DNA from: Acidobacteria bacterium RIFCSPLOWO2_12_FULL_66_21 | Lineage (GTDB): Bacteria; Acidobacteriota; Vicinamibacteria; Vicinamibacterales; 2-12-FULL-66-21 | Reading direction: 5' to 3' | DNA: 64,000 bases | NCBI GenBank assembly: GCA_001767455.1 | Contig: MELC01000071.1 | Coordinates: forward strand, 32,555-96,554 | Shown: one piece after another, positions 5,601-13,450 of the stretch | How positions within the stretch are numbered: position 1 is the stretch's first letter | Layout: the number at the start of each line of letters is the position of its first letter | Notes under the pieces: generated by a model | The model's input: the letters and a program-made list of their open reading frames with translations, nothing else | What the model was told of the DNA's origin: nothing | The model's database searches: none | Position numbers and translations under genes: made by a program

Positions 5601-6437
5601 TCAGGATTCGTGCATCCAGCGAAGCACGCGCGGGTCGGGCCGCCGGCGCGGGAGCGGCGGCACATACATGGTCGCCATCACCGGGATGACCTCACGGGGA
5701 AGTTTCGCCAGGGTCGTTTCCCGGATGACGGCATCGCAGATCGAGAATTGCGACGCCTTGTAGAGGATGACCGGATGGCGAGCCGGGTAGGACTTGCGGA
5801 GCCTCGAGACGAGCAGCCGGAGGCGCTCGGGGCGGCATGTCATTCCCGGACGCACACTGGGCTCGCCGAGGGCGCCAACCTGCCACAGGATCAGGCTGCT
5901 GCTCGAATCGAACCGGCGCCCGAGCGCCAGGAAATCCGTCGCCTCGAAATGCTGGCATCCGTCGGCCCCCGGATCCACGCCCAGATCCGCGAATAGACAA
6001 TCTTCGGTGGAGACCCCCGGCAGCATGCGCGCGGCATACCCCTCCGTTCGGGCCCGCCGGATGACTTCCTGTCCCGGCCACGCGAACACCCCGGGGTGCC
6101 CGTAGAATGCGGCGCACACGTCCTTCCCCTCGCGTACCGGCCCCAGCATGCGCTCGATCATCTCCTCGTACGTCTGGTGGCGCGGCTTGCCCTCGGCGTA
6201 ACAGTCCTGCAGCGATGTGCCGGTCGGATTCAGCGTCCGGATCCAGTCTTCGGTGATCGCGTTCGTCACCAGATAGAACAGGCGTTCGGCGTGCTGCATG
6301 TGCCACAGCGCCTCGACGGTCGTGTGGACGACCAGGCTGATGCCGGTGCCCACAATGACCAGCGAGCCGCGGGAACGAGCCGGCGGCAGCGCGTTGCACG
6401 CGCCACCGCCGGCACGACTCGAACCCCCGGGTGGCAT
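5601..6437 (-). CDS. Borosin-type peptide backbone alpha-N-methyltransferase
   Basis: Predicted SAM-dependent enzyme of the tetrapyrrole-methylase fold that N-methylates peptide-bond nitrogens, as OphMA (fungal) and SonM (bacterial split borosin) do. The 278-aa protein has a glycine loop VIVGTGI (27-33), Y80-R86-Y90 with the Tyr-x5-Arg-x3-Tyr spacing I recall for the OphMA catalytic residues, FYGHPGVF (111-118), MLPGVSTEDCLFADLG (138-153), FEATDFL (164-170) and LILWQVG (182-188). These last blocks are borosin hallmarks not expected in cobalamin-pathway methylases. The first roughly 24 residues are poorly conserved in look; a later start is possible. ATG 6437 shares one base with the stop of the upstream precursor-like gene (TGATG), implying translational coupling. 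No precursor is fused to it, so it is of the split type. Confidence 0.85.
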   Translation of the reverse strand: MPPGGSSRAGGGACNALPPARSRGSLVIVGTGISLVVHTTVEALWHMQHAERLFYLVTNAITEDWIRTLNPTGTSLQDCYAEGKPRHQTYEEMIERMLGPVREGKDVCAAFYGHPGVFAWPGQEVIRRARTEGYAARMLPGVSTEDCLFADLGVDPGADGCQHFEATDFLALGRRFDSSSSLILWQVGALGEPSVRPGMTCRPERLRLLVSRLRKSYPARHPVILYKASQFSICDAVIRETTLAKLPREVIPVMATMYVPPLPRRRPDPRVLRWMHES

Positions 6438-6880
6438 CAGCGCCGGCGTCCCGTCCCTTTGCGTGTGGATTTGCGGGCGGTCTTGCGGGCACCCCGCTTC
6501 GCGACGGCGGGTCGCTTCGCGCTCCCCTTCTTTGCAGGAGCCTTCTTTGCAGGGGCCTTCTTTGCAGGGGCCTTCTTTGCAGGGGCTTTCTTCGCCGGCG
6601 TGCGCTTCGCGGGCGGCCTCGTCGCAGGTTTCCGCGGTTTCCCCGGTGTCGCCGGTTTGGCCGGTGGCTTCTCGAAGAACAGCTCCAGGGACAGCGGGTC
6701 GTTCAACGGCATCCCGGCGGCCTCCCGAAGCACGTCTGGATCGCGCCGAAGAATGATGTCCCTTTCCTCGGGCGACAGATCCGTTTGGGCCAGCTCCGAG
6801 TGCGGATCCGCCGAGAATCGCTTGGCACGCTCGAGGTCCGTGGCCATGCCGAGTACGAACTGACGCAGGCGCTCACTCAT
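6437..6880 (-). CDS. Putative split-borosin precursor with histone-H1-like tail
   Basis: A 147-aa protein. Residues 1-58 are a small predicted helical domain (LRQFVLGMATDLERAKRFSA, then LSPEERDIILRRDPDVLRE) resembling the LigA-like borosin-binding domain of SonA-type precursors: a Leu-rich first helix, a D-P turn, L(S/T)-EE and a final helix. Residues 59-71 include a hydrophobic SLELFFEK stretch. Residues 72-147 are Lys/Ala/Pro/Arg-rich with AKKAP repeats, like histone H1 or AlgP tails. ATG 6880 is preceded by AGGAGAG, while a frame extension upstream lacks support. It overlaps the methyltransferase start by one base. Which residues form the methylated core is unknown: SLELFF is hydrophobic as known cores are, whereas the AKKAP tail would be novel. 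It could instead be a nucleoid protein. Confidence 0.72.
   Translation of the reverse strand: MSERLRQFVLGMATDLERAKRFSADPHSELAQTDLSPEERDIILRRDPDVLREAAGMPLNDPLSLELFFEKPPAKPATPGKPRKPATRPPAKRTPAKKAPAKKAPAKKAPAKKAPAKKGSAKRPAVAKRGARKTARKSTRKGTGRRR
6526..6600. repeat. 15-bp minisatellite coding AKKAP repeats
   Basis: Five tandem 15-bp units (6526-6540, 6541-6555, 6556-6570, 6571-6585 and a diverged 6586-6600) of the form CCTTCTTTGCAGGGG on the plus strand. Read on the minus strand they encode the AKKAP pentapeptide repeats of the precursor-like protein. Near-identity of the middle units suggests recent slippage and a variable copy number. Confidence 0.9.
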
Positions 6881-6933: not shown

Positions 6934-9525
6934 TTACTGGGGGAGGCCAACACTGGCCAGGAGAGGCGGGAAGCGCCGGTCTGCGCGGAGCCGGTCGAAC
7001 CGTGGATCCACTTTCAGGTACTCGATCCAAGGATCGCGGAGGTCTCGCGCCCGCGCCAGCCACTCGAAGGCCCGGTCGGCATCACCCAGTCCGACGTAGA
7101 TGATTGCGACGCCGCCCGCGGCCGTGCTCTCGTTTGCGTTCGCACGACGTACCAGGTCGTCTCGAACCTTGAGCGCGTCAGCTCGCCGGCCGGCGACTGC
7201 GCGAATGTATCCTAAATCAGCCTGAAGCTCCAGATCCCGCGGGTCCTGCGGCGCCGCGCGTTCGGCTTCGGCGAGGGCCCGGCCGTACTGCCCCTGCAGC
7301 GCGTAGATCTCGGCGAGCTGCATGCGCGTCCGGGGATAGCCCTTGTCCATCGACAGCGCTTTCTGCACTTCCGCGAGCGCCTCGCCGTACTTGCGCTGGT
7401 GCATGAGGATCAGGCCGCGCAAGGTGATGGCGCCGGCCGACAGCGGGTCCTGCTCCACCGCCGTCGTGACTTCGGCGAGCGCCTCCGGCAGCCTGCCTTG
7501 CTTTGACAGAAACGACCCGTACCACCGGTGCGCGGACGCATTCGACGGCTTGAGCGCCAGGGCGCGCCGGAATTCCGTTTCAGCGGCGCTCCATTCGAAC
7601 CGCCGCATGCGGATGTACCCGATGGAGGCGTGGGCCTCGGCCACCGAGTCGTCCAGCGCCAGCGCCTGGGTCGCCGCCTTCAGCGCCGCCGCTTCCGCCT
7701 CGGCCCGCGGCATCATCTGGTACACGTGCAGAAGACTGTACGCGTCGGCGAGTCCGGCATACGCGCGCGCCGACTTCGGGTCGCGATCGATGGCCTCCTG
7801 GAAGTACTGGATACTCCGCTTGAGCCCTTCCTCCGTGCGCATGTTCCAGTAGTAGCGGCCGTGCAGGTAGAGATCGAATGCAGCGGGGTCCTGCGTCCCG
7901 CCACGGCCGGCGGCATCGGCGGCGAGCGCGCTCTGCTGCTGCTCGCTGAGGCGCAGGCTGATGCCCCGCGCCACCGCCTCCGCAATCCGGCTCTGAAGCG
8001 TCAGCACGTCGCCAAGCACGGCGTCGAAGGTCTGGTCCCAGATCTGCGTGTCGGTCCCGGCGTAGATCAGGCGCGCCTTGATGCGCACCTTTCTGCCAGC
8101 GATGTCGGCCTCGCCGCCCGGTCCGGGCTGCACGAACACCGACCCTTCGAGCACGGCATCGACGTTCAACGCCCGCGCGATGTCACGCAGCGGCTTCTTC
8201 GAGCCCTTGAACGAGGCCGCCGACGTGCGGGAGATGACGTTGACGCCATTGAGCCCGCCGAGCGTGCCGATCAGCTCGTCGGTCATGCCCTCGGCAAAAT
8301 AATCCTGGGCCGCGTTGCCGGACACGTTGGCGAGCGGCAGCACCGCGATCGAGCGAACGGCGCCGGCCGGCGCCCCCGCCGCCGGCGGCGTGGGCGAGGG
8401 CCACAGCCAGGCGGTGCCGGCCACGACCGCGATGGCCGCGGCGGCCATGAGCCCCGCGCGCCAGCCCGTCGCGCGCCGGCGGGTCTCCGGCTGCGGCCGA
8501 TCGACCAGACCGTCGTCGTGCAAGGCGCGCGCGAGATCGGCCTCGACTGCGCCGGCGCTTGCATACCGGCGGGCGGGATCGGCCGCGATCGCGCGGTCGA
8601 TCACGCGTACGAACGCGGACGGCAGATCCGGCCGTGCATCGCGCAGCGGCACGAGCTGCCCCTCGCTGTGTCTGGCGTGCAGCTCCTCCATCGTGGCCGC
8701 CCGCACCGGGAACAATCCCGTGACGAGCCGATACAAGAGCACGCCGAGACTGTACAGATCTGTTCCCTGGCTTGCCGGCGCGCCGGCGAGCAGCTCGGGC
8801 GCCAGGTAAAGCGGCGTCCCCGCGACACCGGGGGCCGTGGTGCTCTCGACCTCCCGCCCCGTCCCGAAATCCATCAGGACGATGCGGCCGCCCTTTTCGC
8901 GCATGACGTTCTGCGCCTTCACGTCGCGGTGCACGAGGCCCGCTGCATGAAGCGCCGCCAGCGCCCGGCACAGCTCCATGCCGATGGCCGCGGCTTCGCT
9001 CGCCCCGAGCGGACCGTGCGTGCGCACGTGCGATTCGAGCGTTTCGCCGTGCACCATCTCCATCCAGAGGCCGACACGCTTCTGGTGCTTCGCCACGCCG
9101 TAGACGGTGACGACGTTGGGATGACGCACGCGCGCCAGCAGCCGTCCTTCGGCGGTGATGCGCGAGGTCGTCGGATCGGCATCGTCCGGCTCGGCCCGAA
9201 GCAGCTTGAGCGCGACCTCGCGCTCGAGCTCCCGGTCCCACGCGCGAAACACGTCGGCGAACGCGCCCCCGCCGAGCCGCTCCAGCACCGACAGATGCCC
9301 CCACTCGCCGAGTGTTGGTACCGACAGTGATGGCATCCGGTGTGGCATCCGTACCGGCGCTTCCGGAAGGCTGCGATGCAGTTGGGACAGCGTGGCGACG
9401 ACGCGAAACTGGCGCACGACGTCGCGCTCGGCCGGCGTGGCTTGGGATTCCACGAGGTTCCAGTCGACCGGCACGCCGTCCGCGATCGATTCCGCCAGCG
9501 AGAGGAGAGATGTTTCAGACGCCAC
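6934..9525 (-). CDS. Ser/Thr protein kinase with membrane anchor and TPR output
   Basis: An 863-aa PknB-type kinase fusion. The kinase domain is at about 78-335: glycine loop GGGAFADVF (85-93), ATP lysine K107, catalytic HRDVKAQN (199-206) and DFG (219-221), with LAPE in the activation region, so it looks active. A single membrane segment lies at about 356-376. Then follows a TolB/CadC-like domain (IAVLPLANVSGNAAQDYF onward, to about 540) and a long TPR array to the C-terminus. Expected topology is cytosolic kinase, periplasmic TPR. Its start lies inside the 3' end of the sigma-factor gene (11-base overlap), and 53 bases separate it from the precursor-like gene, so one operon is likely. Substrate unknown. 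Confidence 0.9.
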   Translation of the reverse strand: MASETSLLSLAESIADGVPVDWNLVESQATPAERDVVRQFRVVATLSQLHRSLPEAPVRMPHRMPSLSVPTLGEWGHLSVLERLGGGAFADVFRAWDRELEREVALKLLRAEPDDADPTTSRITAEGRLLARVRHPNVVTVYGVAKHQKRVGLWMEMVHGETLESHVRTHGPLGASEAAAIGMELCRALAALHAAGLVHRDVKAQNVMREKGGRIVLMDFGTGREVESTTAPGVAGTPLYLAPELLAGAPASQGTDLYSLGVLLYRLVTGLFPVRAATMEELHARHSEGQLVPLRDARPDLPSAFVRVIDRAIAADPARRYASAGAVEADLARALHDDGLVDRPQPETRRRATGWRAGLMAAAAIAVVAGTAWLWPSPTPPAAGAPAGAVRSIAVLPLANVSGNAAQDYFAEGMTDELIGTLGGLNGVNVISRTSAASFKGSKKPLRDIARALNVDAVLEGSVFVQPGPGGEADIAGRKVRIKARLIYAGTDTQIWDQTFDAVLGDVLTLQSRIAEAVARGISLRLSEQQQSALAADAAGRGGTQDPAAFDLYLHGRYYWNMRTEEGLKRSIQYFQEAIDRDPKSARAYAGLADAYSLLHVYQMMPRAEAEAAALKAATQALALDDSVAEAHASIGYIRMRRFEWSAAETEFRRALALKPSNASAHRWYGSFLSKQGRLPEALAEVTTAVEQDPLSAGAITLRGLILMHQRKYGEALAEVQKALSMDKGYPRTRMQLAEIYALQGQYGRALAEAERAAPQDPRDLELQADLGYIRAVAGRRADALKVRDDLVRRANANESTAAGGVAIIYVGLGDADRAFEWLARARDLRDPWIEYLKVDPRFDRLRADRRFPPLLASVGLPQ

Positions 9526-10231
9526 GGGACATCTCCTGCGCGAGCCGCACGAGTGCGCGGCTCACCGCCATGCGCGCCGCGTCGGGCGAGGGCTTGTCGA
9601 GCGCCTCCGCCACCTCGTCGTACCCGGCATCCATTTCGACGCGGGTGACGATGGCCGCCCGATCCTCGGGTCGCAGTCGTGCGAGCGCGGCCTCGTACCG
9701 TTCGACAGCCTCCCTGCCGATGGCCTCGTCGAGCGGTGAGGCGTCGCTGCCCTCCTGGTTCTCGTCGAGTTCTGTCGTCGTTGGCCCCCGCCGGCTGCGG
9801 CGAACCTCGTCGCGGATCCGGTTCATCACGGCCTGCCGCAGGTAGGCCTGCAGCGCCCCCTCGTGCCGCGGCTCAAAGTGGTCCAACCGGTTGACCGCGC
9901 GGACGACGGTTTCCTGGACGAGATCGTCGGTGTCCATCAGATCGCGGGTCCACCGGGGCAGACGGCCGCTCGCCCACCGGCGCAGCGCGGGCAGACATCG
10001 AGTAAACAGCCGGTCGAGCGCCGCGCGGTCGCCGCTTTTCGCGCGCTGCACGAGGTCGACCGTCGACTCGAGACCGGAAGGCCGGAGCTCATCCATGGGT
10101 GTTGCTGGTGCCCGCAGTGACGACAGGGCGTCCGTATCATAAAGGTTCGCCTGCTGGGTTTGAAGCGTGATGTTCAGGCCGGTCAGCGCGATAGCCGGCA
10201 GCCAGACGCTTCCCATGGTGATCGGCCCCAT
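9515..10231 (-). CDS. ECF-like RNA polymerase sigma factor
   Basis: Region 2 is seen in DLVQRAKSGDRAALDRLF through the helix TDDLVQETVVRAV, then a linker and region 4 with LRPEDRAAIVTRVEMDAGYD and a recognition-helix area ending MAVSRALVRL. Family members are about 190 aa. ATG 10096 would give 193 aa, but ATG 10231 has a better Shine-Dalgarno (GAGGGG, 7 bases upstream), adding an unconserved 45-residue N-terminus; the start is therefore uncertain. It overlaps the kinase gene by 11 bases. Such sigma-kinase pairs are common in acidobacteria and planctomycetes; the kinase may control it. No anti-sigma factor is adjacent. Confidence 0.85.
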   Translation of the reverse strand: MGPITMGSVWLPAIALTGLNITLQTQQANLYDTDALSSLRAPATPMDELRPSGLESTVDLVQRAKSGDRAALDRLFTRCLPALRRWASGRLPRWTRDLMDTDDLVQETVVRAVNRLDHFEPRHEGALQAYLRQAVMNRIRDEVRRSRRGPTTTELDENQEGSDASPLDEAIGREAVERYEAALARLRPEDRAAIVTRVEMDAGYDEVAEALDKPSPDAARMAVSRALVRLAQEMSRGV

Positions 10232-10319: not shown

Positions 10320-11279
10320 ATGGGAATATCTCCCGTTGAAGGTGCGAGCAAGGCTATGGCCCTGATAACCGGACGGCGCGGGGGCCCGTATGAGCTGGAG
10401 GCCCTCATCGGCAAGGGCGGGTTGGGCGAGGTCTATCGCGCCCGCGATACGCAGCTCAATCGGCGTGTGGCGTTGAAATTCCTGGCGCCGGGACCGCCAG
10501 GGAACGAAGAGACCCTGGCGCGGTTCGGCCGCGAAGCGCGCACCGGGGCCCTTCTCAATCACCCGAACATCGTCGCCGTGTACGACGTCGGCACCCACGA
10601 CGGCGCACCATTCGTCGTCTCGGAACTGCTCGAGGGGCAGACGCTTCGCTCGGCCTTGAGCGCGGGAGCGCTTCCGGCCGACCTCGCCGTGCATTATGCG
10701 CGGCAGATGACGGAGGGACTCGTCGCCGCGCACGAGATCGGCGTCGTCCACCGCGACTTGAAGCCGGAGAACATCTTCATCACGGCCCTGAGCGTCGTCA
10801 AGATCCTCGACTTCGGCCTCGCCGGGCGCCGGCAGCAGGCGCTCGAGGAGTTGGAGGACACGTCGGTCGCGACCTGGCCGCACAACCTGCTGGGCACGGT
10901 GGGATACATGTCGCCCGAACAGATCCGCGGGCTGGCGCTCGACGAGCGGTCCGATCTGTTCAGCGTCGGCGTGATGCTGTTCGAGATGGTCTCGGGGGTG
11001 CCGCCGTTCTGGGCACGATCGCCGGTCGAGACGCTCAGCGCCATCCTGCAACAGGAGCCGCCGATGCTCCGGAGGTACTGCGACGCCGCGCCGGACCTGG
11101 AACGCATCATCCGCCACTGCCTCGTGAAGGATCGCGAGTACCGGTTCCAGTGCGCGCGCGATCTGCTCGTGAACCTGGAGCTCATCGCACCCGCCGGGTT
11201 GCAGGCGGGACGTAACCGGGATTTCGAAGTCAGTCCGATCCGGCCGGGCCTGGTGACGTCACTATTGAAGTTCATGTGA
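10320..11279 (+). CDS. Short soluble Ser/Thr protein kinase
   Basis: A 319-aa kinase consisting of little more than the catalytic domain. It has IGKGGLGEVYRARD (30-43), K53, HRDLKPEN (144-151), DFGLAG (164-169), and a MSPEQIRG activation/APE-type region. All catalytic residues are present, so it should be active. The C-terminus ends about 30 residues after the kinase fold, with no membrane segment or sensor domain, unlike the two neighbouring kinases. It is divergent from the sigma/kinase operon (start-to-start gap 88 bases), so the two may share a regulatory region. Start ATG 10320; ATG 10356 is a possible alternative. Confidence 0.87.
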   Translation: MGISPVEGASKAMALITGRRGGPYELEALIGKGGLGEVYRARDTQLNRRVALKFLAPGPPGNEETLARFGREARTGALLNHPNIVAVYDVGTHDGAPFVVSELLEGQTLRSALSAGALPADLAVHYARQMTEGLVAAHEIGVVHRDLKPENIFITALSVVKILDFGLAGRRQQALEELEDTSVATWPHNLLGTVGYMSPEQIRGLALDERSDLFSVGVMLFEMVSGVPPFWARSPVETLSAILQQEPPMLRRYCDAAPDLERIIRHCLVKDREYRFQCARDLLVNLELIAPAGLQAGRNRDFEVSPIRPGLVTSLLKFM

Positions 11280-11788: not shown

Positions 11789-13450
11789 TTAACGCGCGGC
11801 CGGCGTGAGTCTTGTCGCGTTGGCCCACCGAACCGACATCATGCCGGCCGTCGCGTTCAACCGGATGTTGGACGTGCCCTCGGCGCCGCTCAGCCTCCCG
11901 CTGAAGGCGATGCGCCGCCCGCGGGGCGACCACCTGGGCAGCGACGCGCGGTCGTGCAGACGGCGCGGCTCGCCGCCGTTCACCGCGACCACCATCAGTT
12001 GGCCCCTCTGCTCCGCGTTCTGGGGTCGGAGCTCCGTGGGTACGGTCGTGTAGGCCAGCTCGGTGCCGTCGGGCGACCACACCGGATTGAACCCCTCGCG
12101 CGTCACGCGCCGGACGGCCTCGCCCGTCCGACCCATCACAAAGATCCCCCCACTCTCCCGGCTCGAACGGAACGCGATCCGTTCCCCGTCGGGTGAAAAG
12201 GCCGGTTGCTCGTCGTCGGCGGGCGAATCCGCCGTGAGATTGATCGGGGTCTGGCCGCTGACGCTCTGCAGGTAGATGTCACGATTCCCGGCGCCTTCTC
12301 CTGTGTAGACGACCCACCTCCCATCCGGCGACAGACTGGCGAACAACTCGCCTCCAGGCTGCGACGTGAGCTGGTCGAAGGTCGCACGCACGGGCGGGGC
12401 ACTGGTGAGGTAATCGAATGGCCGCCACACGATCACCGATACAGCCGCTGCCAGCACGGAAAGACCGGCGACAACTCCAATTGCACGTCGGGGGCCCGGC
12501 CTCGGCCGCCGTTGAGGCGCAGGTGCCGGCACTGACACGAGTGCGTCGGACGCGATCTGTCGCTGCAGATCCTCAAGCTCGTTCCGCACGTCGAGAGCGG
12601 TCTGATAACGACGCATCGGCTCCTTGGCGAGGCAGCGGCGTACGATGCGGTCGAGGTCTGGCGGCAGGTCCGGCCTCAGCTGCGTGAGTGGCGTCGGCGC
12701 GTCCTTCAGGATCGACGAGATGATCGCGAATGCCGAATCCCCCTGAAACGGCCTGGTACCCGTCGCCATCTCGTAGAGCATGACCCCCAGCGAGAAAATG
12801 TCCGAGCGCGCGTCGACAGCCTTCCCTTCGGCCTGCTCGGGCGACATGTAGGCGGGCGTGCCCAAGACGCGCTGTTGCGCCGTCAACTGCTCGGTCGTGA
12901 CTACGCTCGGGTCGGGGCTTGCCTGCGCCTCCTGCCTGAGCCTTGCGAGGCCAAAGTCAAGGACCTTGACCCGTCCGTCGGCGCCGACCATGATGTTGGC
13001 CGGCTTCAGATCGCGATGGACGATGACGCGCTGATGCGCCGCGCTCATCGCGTCGGCGAGCGGCAGCGCGAACGTCAGCAGTGCCTCGAGCCGCAGCCCG
13101 CCCGCGGGGATCAGGTCGACGAGCGTTTTCCCCTCGATCAGCTCCATCGTGAGGAAGTGGATGCCGCGCAACTCCTCGACCGAGTAGATGGTGACGACGT
13201 TGGGATGATTGAGGGCGGCGATGGCCTGGGCCTCGCGCTGGAAGCGGTGTAGACGCTCCGGATCGCTGGCGAAAATCTCCGGTAGGATCTTGAGGGCCAC
13301 GTCACGCCGGAGCCTGGTGTCACGGGCGCGATACACGACACCCATCCCACCGGCACCGAGAGTGCTAACAATCTCGAAGTAGCCAAGCCGAGTACCAGCG
13401 CTCAGCGCCATTGGTGGTTCCGGAAACGGACTCCGACTTACTGTGGTCAA
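11789..13450 (-). CDS. Ser/Thr kinase with short PD40/TolB-like propeller
   Basis: A 553-aa PknB-type kinase. GAGGMGVVYRARD (32-44), K54, HRDLKPAN (145-152), DFGLAR (165-170) and a MSPEQAEG region indicate an active kinase. A membrane segment lies at about 318-340, then a periplasmic segment with PD40/WD40-like strands (SPDGRWVVYTGEG, FSPDGERIAFRS, WSPDGTELAYTT, WSPRGRRIAFSG). Relatives usually run to 800-900 aa with a full propeller; here only about four blades are present, so the protein is probably shortened at the C-terminus. ATG 13411 (MALSAGTRLG) is an alternative start closer to the usual domain edge. Confidence 0.87.
   Translation of the reverse strand: MTTVSRSPFPEPPMALSAGTRLGYFEIVSTLGAGGMGVVYRARDTRLRRDVALKILPEIFASDPERLHRFQREAQAIAALNHPNVVTIYSVEELRGIHFLTMELIEGKTLVDLIPAGGLRLEALLTFALPLADAMSAAHQRVIVHRDLKPANIMVGADGRVKVLDFGLARLRQEAQASPDPSVVTTEQLTAQQRVLGTPAYMSPEQAEGKAVDARSDIFSLGVMLYEMATGTRPFQGDSAFAIISSILKDAPTPLTQLRPDLPPDLDRIVRRCLAKEPMRRYQTALDVRNELEDLQRQIASDALVSVPAPAPQRRPRPGPRRAIGVVAGLSVLAAAVSVIVWRPFDYLTSAPPVRATFDQLTSQPGGELFASLSPDGRWVVYTGEGAGNRDIYLQSVSGQTPINLTADSPADDEQPAFSPDGERIAFRSSRESGGIFVMGRTGEAVRRVTREGFNPVWSPDGTELAYTTVPTELRPQNAEQRGQLMVVAVNGGEPRRLHDRASLPRWSPRGRRIAFSGRLSGAEGTSNIRLNATAGMMSVRWANATRLTPAAR

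Follow-up and report, generated by a model that had tools for sequence, protein, structure and literature searches.

To our knowledge, the role that most bacterial borosins play for the organisms that make them is unclear. The closest described system to the one reported here is the type IV split borosin pair SonM/SonA of Shewanella oneidensis, in which enzyme and precursor are separate proteins (PMC8429565). The available text of that paper describes the SonA binding domain as a five-helix bundle and the pocket of SonM around the methylated position as large and hydrophobic, and it names the SonM residues Y58, R67, Y71, F99, E146, W166 and Q178. Two further precedents concern features outside the borosin chemistry. 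The KPAA-repeat proteins AlgP and PhaF of Pseudomonas carry Lys/Ala/Pro-rich, disordered C-terminal domains that have been likened to histone H1 (PMC9239181). In the EcfP/PknT and EcfK/PknS systems a sigma factor gene adjoins a Ser/Thr kinase gene, and section 3.4 of PMC8999054, which makes no mention of RiPPs, describes sigma factors activated by such adjoining kinases.

The window analysed here is the whole stretch of 64,000 nucleotides from contig MELC01000071.1 of Acidobacteria bacterium RIFCSPLOWO2_12_FULL_66_21. It contains a gene pair that resembles SonM/SonA in its separate enzyme and precursor, homologous enzyme, borosin binding domain (BBD) and core position. It differs in two respects: SonA (71 residues, 7ltc_B) ends about 16 residues past its anchor Gly, whereas the window precursor adds a 77-residue polycation, and the window genes sit behind genes for an ECF sigma factor and a kinase-TPR protein. 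With moderate confidence, we read the pair as a split borosin in which a few methyl groups would be placed on the segment LSLELFF and the tail would act as a disordered follower that binds polyanions or membranes, all within an operon headed by the kinase and ECF sigma genes.

The precursor and methyltransferase genes

The precursor open reading frame lies on the minus strand at exactly 6437..6880 and encodes 147 amino acids plus a stop, with AAGGAG ahead of the ATG. Its stop codon overlaps the start of the methyltransferase gene (5601..6437, minus strand, 278 amino acids) as TGATG. A chance or frame artefact is ruled out: AAG and AAA account for 19 of the 75 codons past residue 72, in DNA with 68% G+C, and the frame closes where the methyltransferase begins, so the tail reads as coding sequence.

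The downstream gene is assigned as a borosin alpha-N-methyltransferase from its matches to Pfam TP_methylase (2.7e-17) and to the solved structures of SonM (1.2e-53) and OphMA (3.4e-53). It is identical to SonM at 96 of 244 aligned columns (39% over the aligned stretch). Of the catalytic and lock residues of SonM, Y58, R67, Y71, Y93, F99, E146 and W166 are present, and the lock residue Q178 is replaced by Pro.

Residues 1-56 of the precursor (6713..6880, minus strand) form a LigA-like region for which AlphaFold predicts five helices (3-14, 16-24, 26-31, 37-45 and 48-55; mean pLDDT 78.8). A BBD profile built from 17 precursors, with G068 and the cut G006 sequence excluded, retrieved seven SonA sequences (best 6.1e-13) as well as the OphMA and dbOphMA clasp (about 2e-5 to 4e-5); a single-sequence search with the precursor BBD did not find SonA. 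Foldseek ranked the LigA-like domain of DesB first for the precursor model and listed many SonA chains, whose TM scores by query length were 0.53-0.60; none of the matches, SonA chains included, reached an E value of 0.001. The Pfam LigA scores of 19.8 and 21.9 bits lie below the cut-off of 25.3, and SonA too carries a LigA-domain annotation. On the profile evidence, the first 56 residues are assigned to the borosin binding domain. Membership of the 5601-6880 gene pair in the split borosins is well supported at the level of sequence, because the start of a SonM-related enzyme overlaps the precursor stop and the BBD profile matches SonA at 6e-13; a discrete SonM/OphMA-family enzyme and a discrete BBD precursor are encoded by adjoining genes. 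An earlier note on this DNA had proposed a RiPP-type precursor for backbone N-methylation at 6437-6880, and this holds in the more specific form of a split borosin, given the BBD kinship and the partner enzyme.

Candidate core and polycationic tail

The candidate core LSLELFF (residues 63-69; 6674..6694, minus strand) lies 7 to 13 residues past the BBD anchor Gly56. In SonA, the methylated L63 and I65 are 8 and 10 residues past Gly55, and LSLELFF overlies these positions. We infer that the methylated residues fall within it. A core around residues 65-69, SLELFF, was one of the options in the earlier note; the hydrophobic extent is corrected here to LSLELFF at 63-69. The sequence of the segment is not conserved, and other tailed members have weakly hydrophobic segments at the same position.

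The tail begins after LSLELFF. Residues 71-147 (6440..6670, minus strand) comprise 20 K, 11 R, 14 P and 18 A with a single aliphatic residue, no D or E and a net charge of +31, which bears out the tail of about 75 Lys/Ala/Pro/Arg residues reported from the first inspection. Within it, the AKKAP array (6526-6592, minus strand) is a tandem repeat with a 15-bp period, 4.5 copies and 96% match. AKKAPAKK-type DNA is unique to the precursor gene in the whole genome (4 overlapping sites), and the pattern KKxxxKKxxxKK occurs in only 3 genes of the 6.48 Mb genome, precursor included (a control with the reversed pattern matched 0 times forward and 4 times in reverse). The second of these genes encodes a protein with a basic N-terminus (AKKSAKK; G000:C30:72366 region, L060), which by eye we take to be SWIB-like and of chromatin type; we count this presumed identity in favour of a polyanion-binding tail. 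The third has an internal Lys/Glu/Asp stretch in a 1012-residue open frame. Lys-rich repeats of this kind are thus not widespread in the genome.

Membership of a histone-H1-like family was rejected (Pfam HC2, 21.6 bits against 40; NCBIfam hist_H1_lk_Burk, 28.3 against 80), and the likeness of the tail to histone H1 is one of composition only. The same applies to AlgP and PhaF, for which the available text of PMC9239181 mentions neither a BBD nor a methyltransferase: the likeness is compositional and homology is not implied. By analogy, these two proteins may be the nearest working precedent for the tail, which we would expect to be disordered and to bind polyanions or membranes.

The tail among relatives

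The enzyme was found in 11 of 162 genomes of the order (E up to 1e-15), and a class-wide search added none outside the order (11 of 193 in total). The precursor adjoins the methyltransferase at all 11 loci, represented in G006 by the tail only, at the contig end. This 5-kb contig is 99.7-99.9% identical to that of G105 (L022 versus L020) though the two genomes are labelled as different families, so it is probably mis-binned; G006 was removed from the counts as a duplicate, leaving 10 distinct loci.

A basic C-terminal tail is present in seven of the 10 precursors (G000, the window genome, and G002, G034, G036, G039, G105 and G113). Beyond the core region these tails run for 22 to 77 residues, with net charges of +11 to +31 and at most two hydrophobic residues each, and a single acidic residue, in G113, occurs among all seven. 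Two precursors have a basic N-terminal stretch (G107 and G068, the latter with this feature only) and one has neither (G004). The earlier note had called for a comparison of homologue tails, and its outcome is divided: charge and placement recur, while the tail sequences of different genera fail to align, and G004, whose methyltransferase is the closest (63%), has a tail-less precursor ending in GPVMVVGWWKR. From these sequences, it is the charge of the tail that appears to be kept and not its wording, which would suit a polyanion- or membrane-binding follower, and the case of G004 indicates that the chemistry does not require the tail.

The G107 precursor (L025:5449-5883) is Lys-rich at its N-terminus and has Lys between its four hydrophobic-EQNN repeats; it looks like a multi-core borosin. 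Together with the absence in G004 and the arrangement in G447 described below, it shows that the lineage tries many C-termini. Confinement of the tail to a single clade in the enzyme tree was rejected, with 6 changes against a shuffle mean of 8.5 (19 of 500 shuffles as low), a count in which the duplicate G006 row inflates the clustering. The tail appears weakly clustered on the tree and would have been gained or lost several times, most forks being poorly supported. Three further weak BBD-profile matches in the order, in G159, G101 and G024, lack an enzyme; considered as orphan tail carriers, all three proved to be without such a tail. The scan of genome contigs yielded two relatives only.

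Across a phylum sample, the enzyme occurs in 11 of 396 genomes (E up to 1e-20), G000 included. Five of the other ten hold seven discrete precursors (three in G447; one each in G454, G498, G419 and G175), three have the BBD fused to the enzyme (G201, G225 and G189), and no precursor was found in G319 and G166. A Lys tail is present in G498, and IKAK repeats occur in one of the three G447 precursors. The G447 locus (L045:3936-14925) consists of three tandem cassettes, each with a kinase-TPR gene, an oppositely oriented borosin precursor and a methyltransferase. In G201, G225 and G189 (L050, L052 and L053), the fused BBD-methyltransferase lacks an evident core between its two parts and is directly followed by a separate second methyltransferase; such pairs may be regulatory or involve a pseudo-enzyme.

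Further afield, an Acidimicrobiia precursor is tail-less, no precursor tail was found at a Lysobacterales locus and the viral contigs searched gave zero relatives. Nine plasmid records contain a relative, and seven were examined (H7 and H9 were left out). Four have discrete precursors (Streptomyces, Bradyrhizobium, Sinorhizobium and Haloarcula) and three have larger single ORFs containing the enzyme. None of the four discrete precursors, which are split precursors of other phyla, has a Lys tail; that of Bradyrhizobium ends in an Arg/Ile-rich stretch. Titles and abstracts in the literature yielded no borosin with a polycationic tail, the main bacterial surveys lying outside this coverage, so that absence from print is unproven.

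The 15-bp tandem array, the failure of tails to align between genera and the tail-less G004 precursor are what would be expected if the tail were neutral low-complexity sequence, growing and shrinking by repeat slippage. However, seven tails that differ in wording are all strongly basic and hold one acidic residue in total, Lys codons would not be expected to persist under drift in a 68% G+C genome, and the trait is missing from all four split precursors of other phyla. We consider neutral drift quite unlikely.

The earlier note had left two options, a hydrophobic core followed by a polyanion-binding module, or the AKKAP repeats themselves as substrate. Under the latter, the repeats would be extra cores and the enzyme would move along the tail, methylating Lys and Ala amides. 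Borosin enzymes are reported to act from N to C and to be permissive for core sequence (PMC11285071, available text). The third G447 precursor carries an AIKAKTA repeat array (eleven IKAK units by eye) that begins at the core position, its first I being 8 residues past the anchor Gly, and a sister precursor ends in AIKVTF; the G107 repeats, from within the order, point the same way. The enzyme paired with the IKAK-repeat precursor has a net charge of -7, whereas all seven tailed members of the order have net positive enzymes (+5 to +20). The AKKAP units, by contrast, each contain Pro, include no hydrophobic residue and start about 30 residues past the core, in an array that looks like a recent DNA expansion and is absent from homologues; the hydrophobic pocket of SonM (PMC8429565, available text) also disfavours them. 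The difference in enzyme charge weakly suggests that IKAK repeats can be a substrate while the AKKAP tail cannot, a hint only, given that the rows are few and related. We regard the AKKAP repeats as decidedly improbable cores, and the core-plus-module option fits better because LSLELFF sits at the SonA positions, the array expansion looks recent, Pro lacks a backbone NH and the partner enzyme is basic. A role of the tail as a dock for the enzyme is also unlikely: each of the seven tailed precursors is paired with an enzyme that is itself net positive, though enzyme charge does not strictly track the tail (the enzyme of tail-less G004 is +9).

Operon context and possible function

Upstream on the minus strand lie an ECF-type sigma factor gene (9515..10231; Sigma70_r2 3.2e-12, Sigma70_ECF 1.7e-6) and a gene for an 863-residue Ser/Thr protein kinase with C-terminal TPR repeats (6934..9525; Pkinase 2.6e-47, TPR), giving the order sigma, kinase-TPR, precursor, methyltransferase. 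The sigma gene overlaps the kinase start, and 53 bases separate kinase and precursor. All 10 distinct order loci have a homologous kinase-TPR gene upstream (the G068 contig covers its TPR part only), and in each of the eight whose contig extends far enough an ECF sigma gene lies ahead of the kinase gene; both counts include the window. In G447 (three times), G454 and G175, too, borosin genes have kinase genes beside them. With 41 kinase-domain matches in the genome, such steady adjacency is not expected by chance. We infer that the kinase and sigma factor regulate the operon. Read by eye, the apparent region 2.2 of the window sigma factor contains DTDD in place of the STTA of EcfP (group ECF43), so EcfP-type activation cannot be assumed.

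Other Ser/Thr-kinase-like ORFs adjoin the operon (10320-11279, plus strand; 11789-13450, minus strand), one of them divergent from the sigma gene; a divergent kinase-like ORF is likewise seen in L016 and L017. Glycosyltransferase-like ORFs, identified by eye, lie past the methyltransferase on the opposite strand.

The operon context bears on whether the product might instead be a membrane-active cationic peptide, with a methylated hydrophobic head and a polycation, released by a general protease and targeting other cells. A hydrophobic or mixed segment followed by a strongly basic tail does recur, and ECF43 ECF-kinase pairs respond to polymyxin in Vibrio and to amoebal predation in Xanthomonas (PMC8999054, available text). 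Against this, no prolyl oligopeptidase gene of the kind that stands beside the Bradyrhizobium and Haloarcula borosins was found in the window or at the relatives' loci; by eye the precursor has no apparent signal peptide, and a casual look beside the genes noticed no transporter. A secreted peptide of this kind seems unlikely, if less so than neutral drift.

In the preferred reading, the precursor BBD would dock on the methyltransferase encoded by the next gene, which would add a few backbone N-methyl groups to LSLELFF. The Lys/Ala/Pro/Arg tail would be a disordered polycation whose charge and not its sequence is conserved, and would tether the product to a polyanion (DNA, RNA or polyphosphate) or an anionic membrane, and the gene set would be made on demand, with the kinase-TPR and ECF sigma genes at the head of the operon. 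A bolder version, to which we give a small probability, is that the operon, under kinase and ECF control, yields a backbone-N-methylated protein that its histone-like tail keeps in the cell, bound to the nucleoid or to polyphosphate, with a regulatory role there and not as a secreted peptide, the methyl groups possibly extending into the tail.

Since most close relatives share the tail in other wording, the locus is better seen as a variant of a known borosin system than as new chemistry. In this family the short C-terminal core region usual for borosin precursors is followed by a polycation, with no dedicated protease found alongside, which is a caution for precursor finders that expect short hydrophobic C-termini. 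Being tied to kinase and sigma factor genes as well, the tailed family gives direct access to the question of whether backbone methylation can have a use within the cell.
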